Assembly: GCF_029759835.1 (NCBI RefSeq)
Contig: NZ_JAJJND010000010.1
Coordinates: 1-41,998, forward strand
DNA: 41,998 nucleotides
Reading direction: 5' to 3'
Origin: Acetobacter sp. AN02
GTDB lineage: Bacteria > Pseudomonadota > Alphaproteobacteria > Acetobacterales > Acetobacteraceae
Shown here one piece after another: positions 27,127 to 29,989 of this stretch. The notes beneath the pieces are model-generated. The model saw only the letters and a list, made by a program, of their open reading frames with translations. It did not search any database and was not told the DNA's origin. The position numbers and the translations under genes are program-made. Positions within the stretch are counted from its first letter, which is position 1. Each line of letters opens with the position of its first letter.

Positions 27127-27269
27127 CAGTCCGTCCTGTCGCTGCGTTCTGTCGGCGCTCTATCATACCGCAGGACCATCAGTATTTCTGAAACAGCCTC
27201 AGACAGTCCTGCCAGCGCGCATCATTGAACCCGGTTAATGACTGCCCGCGCCGTGCGGGTCAAGATTGT

Positions 27270-27308
27270 GTTTCGGAAATCCGGCTGTTTTTTCCGGATT
27301 TCCGAAAC
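27270..27308 (-). terminator. 15-bp perfect inverted repeat after hsp20
   Basis: GTTTCGGAAATCCGG (27270-27284) and CCGGATTTCCGAAAC (27294-27308) are exact reverse complements with a nine-base loop. They begin 34 bases beyond the hsp20 stop. The stem is long, but no T-run follows on either strand, so it is an atypical terminator or a stabilising or operator element between hsp20 and trcR. Confidence 0.5.
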
Positions 27309-27342
27309 GGGATGCATCATTCCTGCTCTGCAGAAAACGGAC

Positions 27343-27804
27343 CTACGCCGCCTGAGGCGCTGCTTCCTCGCGCCCCTGCGCATTTCCGGTCCGGATGCTG
27401 ATCCGCACGGGTCTGAGCTTCTCCGGCTGCAGACGCTTTACGGACACACTGAGCAGACCGTTTTCCAGAGAGGCATCCTCCACCTCCACATGGTCAGCCA
27501 GCGCAAAACGACGCTCAAACGCCCGGCGTGCAATACCCCGATGCAGCAGTTCACCCGCGGTCTGACCAGTCTCAGGGATACGGCCCGACACGAAAAGCGT
27601 GTTGTCCTGCACCGTTACGTCAATATCATCAGAGCCGAACCCGGCAACAGCCATGGTCAGAACGTAGCTGTCATCACCGTTCTTCTCGATATCGTAGGGC
27701 GGCCAGGACGGTGCCGCCTGATTCCGGGCCGCATTGTCAACAAGACGGGCAAGACGATCAAAACCGATGGCGGTACGGAAAAGGGGAGCAAAATCGCTGC
27801 TCAT
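27343..27804 (-). CDS. Small heat-shock protein Hsp20 (IbpA/HspA type)
   Basis: A 153-residue alpha-crystallin-domain chaperone that holds unfolding proteins in the cytoplasm. The N-terminal FAPLFRTAIGFDRLARLVDNA is typical of the bacterial class A type. PPYDIEKNGDDSYVLTMAVAGF begins the alpha-crystallin domain near residue 35, and GIARRAFERRFALADHVEV and LENGLLSVSV end it. The IXI-like motif is RPVRISI. Two ATG codons lie in tandem at 27807 and 27804; the second sits five bases from AGGAGG and is preferred. The ribosome binding site is masked by a hairpin (see separate entry), pointing to heat control at translation. It follows rpmE on the same strand. Confidence 0.9.
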   Translation of the reverse strand: MSSDFAPLFRTAIGFDRLARLVDNAARNQAAPSWPPYDIEKNGDDSYVLTMAVAGFGSDDIDVTVQDNTLFVSGRIPETGQTAGELLHRGIARRAFERRFALADHVEVEDASLENGLLSVSVKRLQPEKLRPVRISIRTGNAQGREEAAPQAA

Positions 27805-27805
27805 C

Positions 27806-27830
27806 ATAACCTCCTCAGAAGCAAGGTCAT
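27806..27830 (-). promoter_or_regulatory. Probable ROSE-type RNA thermometer of hsp20
   Basis: The transcript 5'-AUGACCUUGCUUCUGAGGAGGUUAU (27830 to 27806) folds into a hairpin of about ten pairs. In it UUGCU faces the Shine-Dalgarno AGGAGG, with one bulged G (27822) and the loop UCUG. The first AUG is also paired. This is the arrangement of ROSE thermometers of rhizobial and enteric small heat-shock genes, including the bulged G that is essential in Bradyrhizobium. Confidence 0.7.
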
Positions 27831-27915
27831 CCGTTCCGGCTCCCTGGATGGCAAACCGGCGGATTATGAAAAACATCGAAACCCGGCTGGCGTTCCGACC
27901 CCCTGAACGTGGAAA

Positions 27916-27944
27916 GCCCCGCACTCCTTTTCAAGAGGCGGGGC
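27916..27944 (-). terminator. Probable terminator after rpmE
   Basis: GCCCCGC (27916-27922) pairs with GCGGGGC (27938-27944), extended by CTC/GAG after a bulged A, giving a ten-pair stem. It lies 49 bases beyond the rpmE stop and only TTT follows on the minus strand, so termination may be partial. It is also part of the leader region of hsp20. Confidence 0.5.
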
Positions 27945-27992
27945 CGCAAACAGACCGCTGAAAGGTCCGCCCGTCCTGACGGTTTCTGAGTC

Positions 27993-28220
27993 TTACGACT
28001 TGCGGGTACCGATACCGGCGAAGCGCTTGTTGAACTTCGCAACCTGACCCCCGGTGTCGAGCATACGCTGCACGCCGGTCCACGCCGGATGGGATTTCGT
28101 ATCAATATCCAGGCGCAGCGTGTCACCGGCCTTGCCCATGCAGGAACGCGTCTTGTACTCGGTGCCATCAGTCATGATGACATTGATCTCGTGGTAGTCG
28201 GGGTGGATACCGGCTTTCAT
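27993..28220 (-). CDS. rpmE: 50S ribosomal protein L31
   Basis: A 75-residue protein of the large subunit at the central protuberance, bridging to the 30S subunit. [26 protein letters not shown], residues 1-26, is the signature start, and HPAWTG and [10 protein letters not shown] are the conserved end. The CxxC zinc pairs of the classical type A form are missing (a single Cys at residue 27), as is common in alphaproteobacteria. The ATG at 28220 gives the family length. A six-pair hairpin (28246-28265) lies in its leader. It follows the FAD-oxidoreductase gene on the same strand after 89 bases. Confidence 0.93.
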
Positions 28221-28309
28221 GGCTGTCTCTCTGCTGCTGGAATGAACCCCGATGCCGACCGGGGTAAGAACGCGCGCATTACCAGACACGGGCGCACAGA
28301 TCAATGTCT

Positions 28310-29989
28310 TCAGCCATAAACTCCGGTCTTTCCTCCCCGGACCAGACCATCAGCCTGCTGTCCGGACAGATCCAGCGCGACGGCTTCCGCAATCCGGATC
28401 CCGTCAATCGCCGCAGAGAAAATCCCGCCGGCATATCCGGCCCCTTCTCCGGCAGGAAAAAGCCCCCGCGTATTCAGACTCTGCCCGTCATCACCACGCG
28501 TGATCCGCAGCGGAGAGGACGTGCGCGTCTCAATACCGGTCATCACCGCATCCTCAAGCGCAAAAGCGTCCAGCTTACCGGCAAAGGCAGGCAGAGCCTC
28601 ACGAATGGCCGTCACGACGAAATCAGGCAGACACAGAGAAAGATCCGTCGGAGTCACGCCTGGCTTGTAGGACGGGACGACACTGCCCAGCGTCTCGGAA
28701 GGACGACCGGCAAGAAAATCTCCCACACGCTGGGCCGGTGCGCGATACCCGCCGCCACCTACCTCCCACGCCTTCCGCTCCCAGTAACGCTGCCACTCAA
28801 CACCCGCCAGCGGCTCATCCGGGTAATCCTCGCCAGGCCGGAGCTCAACCACGATTCCCGCATTCGCATTACGCTCGGCACGGGAATACTGGCTCATCCC
28901 GTTCGTCACCACACGCCCTTCCTCAGAAGTGGCTGCAACGACCGTCCCGCCAGGGCACATGCAGAAGGAATAGACCCCGCGTCCGTCAGACGCATGATGC
29001 ACAAGCTTGTAATCAGCAGCCCCGAGCAGGCTGTTTCCCGCCTGAGAGCCGAACCGCGCCTCATCAATCAGAGACTGGGGGTGCTCGATCCGGACCCCCA
29101 TGGAAAATGGCTTGGCTTTCATCACCACGCCCCTGTCGTGCAGCATCGCGAAGGTATCCCGCGCACTGTGGCCGACAGCAAGAATGACATGCCGGGCAGG
29201 CAGAACACTCCCGTCCGAAAGCCGCAGACCGCTCACGCGCAGTTCACCCTCAGGAGCTTCCTCCGTCAGCAGATCCTCAACACGCGTGCCAAAGCGATAC
29301 TCTCCGCCCGCCGCCTCAATCTCAGCCCGCATATGGCCAACCATGGAAACAAGGCGGAAGGTGCCGATATGCGGCTTCGACAGCCAGAGAATTTCCTCCG
29401 GCGCCCCGGCCCGCACAAACTCCTGCAGAACCTTGCGACCCAGATGCCGCGGATCACTCACCTGGCTGTACAGCTTTCCGTCCGAAAACGTACCCGCACC
29501 GCCCTCACCGAACTGAACATTGCTTTCGGTCGTCAGCTCACCGCGCCGCCAGAGCGCGAACGTATCAACCGTGCGCTCACGCACCTGCTTGCCTCGCTCC
29601 AGAATGATCGGCCGGAGCCCCATCTGCGCCAGGATAAGCCCCGCCATCAGCCCGCACGGACCTGCGCCGATCACGACAGGACGCAGATAATCCAGGCGGC
29701 TGGTCAGGGCAGGAGCGTTGATATCGACAAATCGATACGCCATGTCCGGAGCAGGAGAAATATTCGGTTTTCCCGCAATGCGCGCCAGAACGGCAGCTTC
29801 ATCCGCCACCTCCGCATCAAGCGTGTAAACCAGCCGGATACGCCCCCGCTGCCGCGCATCATAGCCACGCCTGATGATCTCCAGGGACCGCACATCATCA
29901 GGACCGACACCCATCCGGTCCGCTGCGGCATGTGTCAGGTCTTCGGGGGTATGGTCCAGAGGAAGCCGGACTTCAGTCAGTCGGAGCAT
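28310..29989 (-). CDS. FAD-dependent oxidoreductase (COG2509-type)
   Basis: A 559-residue flavoprotein. The N-terminal domain (1-100, [13 protein letters not shown]) is the ferredoxin-like part typical of this group. The FAD Rossmann motif is [14 protein letters not shown] with GAGPCG at 108-113. A GD-type FAD contact and [24 protein letters not shown] lie at the C-terminus. An [12 protein letters not shown] region and FCMCPGG are also standard for the family, which is soluble, widely conserved and of unknown substrate. The ATG at 29989 was chosen at the conserved beginning. It lies downstream of the RND efflux operon, separated by an AT-rich spacer. Confidence 0.82.

Follow-up and report, generated by a model that had tools for sequence, protein, structure and literature searches.

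Probable ROSE-type RNA thermometer in the hsp20 leader of Acetobacter sp. AN02 and its relatives

The hsp20 locus

The window considered in this study, by which we mean the whole 41,998-nucleotide stretch of DNA from Acetobacter sp. AN02, carries on its minus strand a gene for a small heat shock protein, hsp20, with the ribosomal protein gene rpmE as its upstream neighbour. The genes and the signals around the leader are given below, with the basis of each assignment in brackets.

27993..28220, minus strand: rpmE (ribosomal protein L31), upstream neighbour of hsp20 (Pfam, E 7.6e-26)
27916..27944, minus strand: hairpin GCCCCGC-CUCUU-GAAA-AGGAG-U-GCGGGGC followed by UUUCC, a possible terminator of rpmE whose tip holds the -35 box (folding; relatives)
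27930..27935, minus strand: CTTGAA, taken to be a sigma-32-like -35 box (sequence; relatives)
near 27915-27906 (approximate), minus strand: putative -10 in TTTCCACGTT (sequence)
27810..27815, minus strand: Shine-Dalgarno sequence AGGAGG (sequence)
27805..27807, minus strand: first AUG of a tandem pair, 2 nt after GGAGG and unlikely to be the start; its A and U are able to join the stem of hairpin 3
27802..27804, minus strand: second AUG of the pair, the likely start, 5 nt after GGAGG (protein alignment)
27343..27804, minus strand: hsp20, IbpA-type small heat shock protein of 153 aa, start AUG 27804-27802 (Pfam HSP20, E 1.7e-17)

Against the NCBIfam IbpA model the hsp20 product scores 127.7 bits, which is top among its matches but short of the curated cut-off of 212. 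Translation probably starts at the second AUG, in that the protein read from it (MSSDFAPLF) aligns with relatives beginning MTYDFAPLF, MSYDFAPLF and MAYDFAPLF, all of the form M-x-x-D-F-A-P. The call rests on this protein alignment; the script that recorded start spacings accepted starts only from 4 nt after the Shine-Dalgarno core onwards, and its spacings are therefore no evidence against a closer start.

The arrangement of rpmE upstream of hsp20 on the same strand is found in 106 of 110 loci (window included), and a sigma-32-like promoter behind rpmE probably drives hsp20, to judge from the letters of the intergenic region. Of 199 distinct leaders, 192 have a CTTG[AT] box 76-180 nt upstream, which we take to be the -35 element of such a promoter; the count carries no chance control for mere presence. 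Among the 192 leaders having the box, 133 have it at the tip of a hairpin of 10 bp or more, as against 172 of 960 random positions; a looser hairpin measure around the box separated the two poorly (184/194 against 406/594 random) and was replaced by this stricter one. A pattern scan for terminators found no such site in 27200-28350, so that the terminator reading rests on folding and on the relatives. A terminator and a heat-shock promoter may be superposed behind rpmE.

Predicted fold of the leader

Three hairpins are predicted in the leader, two of which covary among relatives, and each of the three carries a bulged G.

27875..27899, minus strand: hairpin 1, GUCGGAAC[G]CC-AGCC-GG.GUUUCGAU, bulged G27891 (fold; covariation in relatives)
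27829..27864 including the outer extension, minus strand: hairpin 2, CCGGUUU[G]CC-AUCCA-GG.GAGCCGG (27859-27836), bulged G27852 (fold; z -2.82)
27806..27830, minus strand: hairpin 3, ROSE-type, AUGACCUU[G]CU-UCUG-AG.GAGGUUAU (predicted fold; motif kept in relatives)
27822, minus strand: bulged G of hairpin 3 (aligned column G in 80/80 rows of alignment A3 and 33/33 of alignment A2, both defined below)

This number lies within the range of the ROSE-like class, which is described as having two to four hairpins, the one nearest the 3' end pairing a motif U(U/C)GCU imperfectly with the Shine-Dalgarno sequence (PMC3669281, PMC4166951). In the window the last hairpin of the leader, hairpin 3, sets the minus-strand letters ACCUU[G]CU (27827-27820) against the Shine-Dalgarno letters AGGAGGU (27815-27809) around the unpaired G27822, exactly as the initial annotation had read them, and the motif is present as UUGCU (27824-27820), imperfectly paired with AGGAGG. 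The outer pairs are A27827-U27809, C27826-G27810, C27825-G27811, U27824-A27812 and U27823-G27813; the inner pairs beyond the bulged G are C27821-G27814 and U27820-A27815, closed by the loop UCUG (27819-27816). A possible extension of the stem (G27828-U27808, U27829-A27807, A27830-U27806) takes in the A and the U of the first AUG (27807-27805), in agreement with the earlier remark that this codon is paired as well. It had also been proposed that the second AUG may be the true start, freed on melting. The codon is indeed the likely start, but it is unpaired and lies outside hairpin 3, so that melting would free the Shine-Dalgarno sequence and not the start codon; the Pseudomonas ibpA thermometers, as described in PMC3669281, also leave the AUG unpaired. 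The interval 27806-27830, first marked as the whole element, is only its last hairpin, and the conserved element spans about 27899-27802.

The strength of hairpin 3 as judged from one sequence is modest. A bulged-G hairpin search finds 10 pairs at the window Shine-Dalgarno sequence, and with this sequence held fixed and the 60 nt upstream shuffled, at least the same pairing arises in 31 of 2000 dinucleotide shuffles (about 1.5%); folded by itself, the hairpin is no more stable than shuffles (z -0.36). Taken alone, the pairing is moderately unlikely by chance, which is suggestive only, and both figures leave some room for a chance pairing of the purine-rich Shine-Dalgarno sequence with an upstream pyrimidine run, a reading on which the relatives bear in the next section. 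The whole leader is only mildly more stable than its shuffles (z -1.20). Hairpins 1 and 2 are predicted to be stable folding or stabilising modules, and the outer extension of hairpin 2 (AUCCG/CGGAU) competes with the foot of hairpin 3.

Conservation in relatives

The window belongs to an Acetobacter by comparison of loci: among genomes of its genus, one has an hsp20 locus that equals that of Acetobacter farinalis over 3420 nt (L014/L192), and another shares 93.9% identity with A. pasteurianus (L018/L198). An hsp20 match is present in 145 of 150 genomes of the family (own genome included). Class 1, as used here, consists of the best-match leaders of 130 family genomes besides the window, and 14 of the 145 genomes, which have distant matches only (best E 1e-18 to 6e-29), were left out of it. 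The motif [CU]UGC[UC] stands shortly before a Shine-Dalgarno-like string, of which the count accepts five, in 129 of the 130 class-1 leaders, and exactly as CUUGCU in 109 of them; the sole leader without it (L024) has AUGCUC in its place. It is because the motif is conserved in these 129 leaders of other genomes that hairpin 3 is raised above chance. A bulged-G hairpin of at least 7 pairs is found in 114 of the 130, the best one being the Shine-Dalgarno hairpin in 106 and an upstream hairpin in eight, and in the set of 80 named loci the motif is present in 78 (the exceptions are L207 and L219). In one locus (L009) the anti-Shine-Dalgarno sequence ACCTTGCT occurs twice in tandem just upstream of hsp20, as if recently duplicated.

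A three-hairpin covariance model, here called R1, was made from alignment A2, which consists of 33 leaders of other genera chosen by eye for clear hairpins and contains neither the window nor any member of the same genus; the structure was drawn on one leader. The whole R1 match in the window lies at 27802..27915 on the minus strand and scores 54.1 bits, with 11.9 bits for the next best match in the window, and genome-wide the hsp20 leader ranks first, followed at 15.1 bits. A sequence-only model from the same alignment gives 38.5 bits at the window leader, so that about 15 bits come with the structure, in a comparison between searches whose filter settings differed. R1 matches each of the 80 named loci once, in the hsp20 leader, and each match stops where the protein match begins or no more than about a dozen bases from there. 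That the motif is kept in 129 of 130 leaders, that the score is 54.1 bits and that the place is the same in 80 of 80 loci all speak against a chance pairing in hairpin 3, which we regard as extremely improbable, the shuffles and the free-standing z value notwithstanding.

Beyond these sets, R1 matches at E 0.01 in 301 of 397 family genomes, counted whatever gene lies downstream. Across 289 genomes of the class Alphaproteobacteria it matches in 32 besides the own genome, at 37 places outside the family, 28 of which are directly upstream of hsp20, two before dnaK and one before a sigma-70 factor. Matches at L274, L275, L276, L279, L280 and L282 have no hsp20 downstream and were taken for chance. 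The two matches before dnaK (L264 and L278) belong to other alphaproteobacterial families, and L264 shows a ROSE-like UUUGCCU hairpin against AGGAGA, a pairing read by eye. The match before the sigma-70 factor (L273), again from another alphaproteobacterial family, precedes a protein with regions 1.2 and 2 that is possibly RpoH.

Covariation

Support from compensating changes is distributed unevenly over the three hairpins. In A2, which was not fitted to the model, the pairs changed on both sides number 8 of 10 in hairpin 1, 5 of 9 in hairpin 2 and 0 of 8 in hairpin 3; in A3, an alignment of the 80 named loci fitted to R1 whose pair counts accordingly lean towards the structure, they number 9 of 10, 8 of 9 and 1 of 8. 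The covariation score is 0.274 in A2 against 0.191 in shuffles, and 0.434 in A3 against 0.178. Sliding the A3 structure along the alignment brings the score to at most 0.137. Shifting the A2 structure by -1 column gives a score of 0.237, with two-sided change in 14 pairs as against 13 unslid, and leaves 63.9% of cells paired as against 84.3% in register.

The outer pairs of hairpin 3 show no covariation beyond shuffles. This hairpin is supported by the conservation of both its arms and not by compensation, the anti-Shine-Dalgarno arm being conserved although nothing else is known to constrain it. The variant [CU]UGCC is found in 20 of 198 distinct leaders, and in examples of it the pairing is kept in a slipped register, as in ggauct[G]ccu-AUG-agg.agguuc. 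The expectation that relatives would show compensating changes and a kept bulged G has thus been borne out for hairpins 1 and 2, which covary, and for the bulged G itself, but hardly for hairpin 3, whose arms are almost fixed and nearly without compensation.

Relation to the known ROSE families

The initial annotation had further predicted that the Rfam ROSE models would hit positions 27800-27950. They do not at threshold, and nothing in Rfam scores at gathering level anywhere in the window. When 401 nt were searched permissively, ROSE_3 (RF02523) came out top of five matches, with 15.6 bits (E 0.97) against a gathering score of 43; the match takes in all 69 positions of the model on the correct strand, ends just past the start codon and lays the hairpins of the model on hairpins 2 and 3. 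We read it as a hint from under the threshold. Neither ROSE (RF00435, gathering score 45) nor ROSE_2 (RF01832, gathering score 65) has a match in the window, or in the own genome at E 0.1, and the E. coli K-12 control scores 100.4 bits with ROSE_2. At a loose threshold ROSE_3 gives five weak hits in the own genome, none of them at the hsp20 leader, in a search that has no power because all 14 control genomes match as well.

Among the relatives, ROSE_3 and ROSE_2 each match over their cut-offs in 0 of 150 family genomes, and two of 12 weak ROSE_3 matches in these genomes fall on class-1 leaders. RF00435 exceeds its cut-off 20 times, in 16 of the 150 genomes; 17 of these matches are in leaders of a second class of hsp20 genes and the other three are also elsewhere than at a class-1 locus. 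With stricter filters, no ROSE family is over its cut-off at any class-1 leader of the 150 family genomes; no match at gathering score was found in the 20 of the 80 named loci examined, nor over the cut-off at any of the 37 R1-match places outside the family.

The second hsp20 class in the family (L138-L157 without L152) has leaders of the type CCAUGUUGCUC...GAGGAUAUGG, except for L157, which is of another type. A bulged-G hairpin was found in 18 of its 19 leaders and RF00435 catches 17 of the loci; the leader missed by the hairpin search (L148) has GAGGG, which is outside the Shine-Dalgarno list of that search. The second hsp20 gene of the own genome (L002, on contig C139) was considered as a ROSE gene and rejected, there being no Rfam match at E 0.1 and a fold that amounts to a 4-pair stem over the Shine-Dalgarno sequence.

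In architecture the window leader resembles each of the known families without coinciding with any. Common to the consensus of all three Rfam ROSE families is a bulged G in the first hairpin. ROSE_3 has an upstream bulged-G hairpin, then a cGCu hairpin against aGgAGg with the AUG just after it, as does the window leader, which however has a further 5' hairpin and scores 15.6 bits against the required 43. ROSE (RF00435), the rhizobial hspA type, shares the UUGCUC hairpin against the Shine-Dalgarno sequence, the bulged G in the first hairpin and the association with small heat-shock genes, but in the family it marks leaders of the second hsp20 class and not those of class 1. ROSE_2, known from E. 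coli ibpA, likewise has a bulged-G upstream hairpin and UCGCU against AGGA, but reaches its cut-off in none of the 150 family genomes. Among the elements described in the literature, the short ROSE-like elements of Pseudomonas ibpA (PMC3669281) share the IbpA-type gene, U(U/C)GCU opposite the Shine-Dalgarno sequence, a stable 5' hairpin and the unpaired AUG; they are described with two hairpins, as against three here, and with a function that was shown there and is inferred for the window. ROSE-G, in the account of PMC12857270, is comparable in its bulged G and in the [CU]UGCC of a minority of the relatives (those 20 of 198 distinct leaders), and differs in having CUGCU, two opposed bulged Gs and a place before ABC transporter genes, where the window has UUGCU and one bulged G.

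For acetic acid bacteria, Table 2 of PMC5756330 lists a ROSE element of 84 nt, annotated with RF00435, before an hsp20 gene of Gluconobacter oxydans 621H, and the same source reports that no transcription start was detected for it. This element shares with ours the position before hsp20 and the group of organisms; its length, however, fits class-2 leaders (84 nt in genome G085), with which we would identify it. Among the papers listed in searches of the open-licence literature for ROSE elements of acetic acid bacteria, none deals with the hsp20 leader of the window. The leader type of class 1 is most probably a branch of the known ROSE class that is uncatalogued by Rfam.

Thermosensing and its alternatives

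All structural features of the ROSE-like class are present in the window leader, namely the motif, the bulged G, three hairpins and the place before a small heat-shock gene, and such elements before ibpA are temperature-controlled in Pseudomonas (PMC3669281). From sequence, predicted structure, position and conservation, the hsp20 leader is very probably a ROSE-type RNA thermometer, as was first proposed for the last hairpin, with heat sensing inferred from the resemblance. The mRNA would be made from the sigma-32-like promoter behind rpmE, and its leader would fold into the three hairpins, the last pairing UUGCU with the Shine-Dalgarno sequence around the bulged G. By analogy with the tested ROSE elements, the weak helix of hairpin 3 would keep ribosomes off at growth temperature, and at heat-shock temperature it would open and translation would begin at the second AUG.

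Melting simulated with ViennaRNA is small: the mean unpaired probability of the window Shine-Dalgarno sequence rises from 0.23 at 25 C to 0.26 at 50 C, the leaders of relatives change little with temperature as well, and the E. coli ibpA control goes from 0.09 to 0.24, a larger change than that of the window. ROSE elements are reported to contain non-canonical pairs. Nearest-neighbour folding omits these, and the small simulated change is therefore weak evidence against melting and not a refutation. Together with the CTTG[AT] box, counted above in 192 of 199 leaders without a chance control for presence, it is what one would expect of a static, conserved Shine-Dalgarno hairpin that lowers translation at all temperatures while heat control is only transcriptional, through sigma-32. 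Such a hairpin would leave it odd that nearly every relative examined has kept a weak, bulged, U-G-containing pairing and has not perfected it, and where this arrangement was put to the test, in the work described in PMC3669281, it proved thermosensory; we consider a static hairpin quite improbable and the ROSE-type thermometer the better reading of the leader.

The recurrent bulged G

A bulged G recurs in the upstream hairpins, which do not mask the Shine-Dalgarno sequence. In the bulge column of hairpin 1 every row carries G, 80 of 80 in A3 and 33 of 33 in A2. For hairpin 2, in which two registers occur, the aligned place is G in 77/77 (A3) and 33/33 (A2), and when each row is read in the register that it adopts, 71 of 77 A3 rows have an unpaired G (C in five, A in one), as do all 33 of A2. 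The outer pairs of both hairpins meanwhile vary freely. When the pyrimidine-[G]-C core is sought with five or more outer pairs, it turns up in 113 of 129 hsp20 leaders, as against 3, 6 and 4 for a bulged A, C or U; in 2000 random stretches, whose source loci include some hsp20 leaders, the same search gives 107 with a bulged G, 41 with A, 64 with C and 50 with U. A narrow literature search found no paper on the upstream bulged G of ROSE leaders.

A hairpin of this kind also precedes dnaK in Acetobacter. Alignment A4 contains the dnaK leaders of 18 of 19 same-genus genomes (the partial L310 was left out), with the structure drawn on the own-genome row, and provides the basis for one further feature.

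1391-1497 of own-genome locus L294 (contig C125): dnaK leader hairpin with a UUCG loop and an invariant bulged G (A4 alignment)

The hairpin, GGUCC..UCCGGU[G]C-UUCG-G.GCCGGA..GGACC in own-genome letters, stands shortly before the Shine-Dalgarno sequence and is followed by GCU in 17 of 18 leaders. Eight of its 12 pairs are changed on both sides, and the covariation score in A4 is 0.460 against 0.258 in shuffles; the core of U-G, [G] and C-G is invariant, with G at the bulge in 18 of 18. No Rfam match occurs in the own-genome dnaK locus at E 0.5. The strict core search finds 10 of the 18 Acetobacter dnaK leaders and none of the 22 Acetobacter rpoH leaders, which come from those of 25 same-genus genomes that have the locus. 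Sharing of the hairpin by rpoH leaders was accordingly rejected for Acetobacter (0/22), though the R1 match at L273 precedes a possible RpoH.

These observations bear on a different account of the conservation, in which the hairpins are a site at which the small heat-shock protein itself binds for autorepression of the IbpA type and heat works chiefly through titration of this protein onto aggregates, RNA melting being minor. There is a precedent in E. coli, where IbpA, as described in PMC10474464, represses its own translation via the ibpA 5'UTR and binds the leader through R93, and where this autorepression needs an aromatic residue at position 34, W being tolerated. Aligned with E. coli IbpA, the window protein carries R94 at the place of R93 and W34 at that of Y34, and hairpin 1 and most copies of hairpin 2 retain a bulged G away from the Shine-Dalgarno sequence. 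Related work reportedly links IbpA to rpoH, so that the lack of the core in all 22 Acetobacter rpoH leaders tells against autorepression of this type, and it argues against a regulon-wide rule of Hsp20 docking. Autorepression is moreover compatible with melting and does not exclude it; as the main reason for the conservation we think it unlikely, and the thermometer remains our preferred reading.

Docking of Hsp20 on bulged-G hairpins is, as a prediction from these comparisons, possible. A broader proposal sees in the bulged-G hairpin, whose pyrimidine-[G]-C stands opposite G-G, a recognition module repeated in alphaproteobacterial heat-shock messages, with three copies in the hsp20 leader and one in that of Acetobacter dnaK, to which the small heat-shock protein could bind. 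We put this forward as a speculation that is distinctly unlikely to hold. If true, one leader would join a thermometer with protein feedback, and the bulged G would be more than a device for weakening a helix.

Conclusions

The analysis adds a ROSE-type branch before the main hsp20 gene in nearly all Acetobacteraceae leaders examined, and the branch recurs in other Alphaproteobacteria. Annotation based on Rfam would miss it in the class-1 hsp20 leaders, where, if the thermometer reading is right, it would place the translation of the small heat shock protein under the control of temperature.
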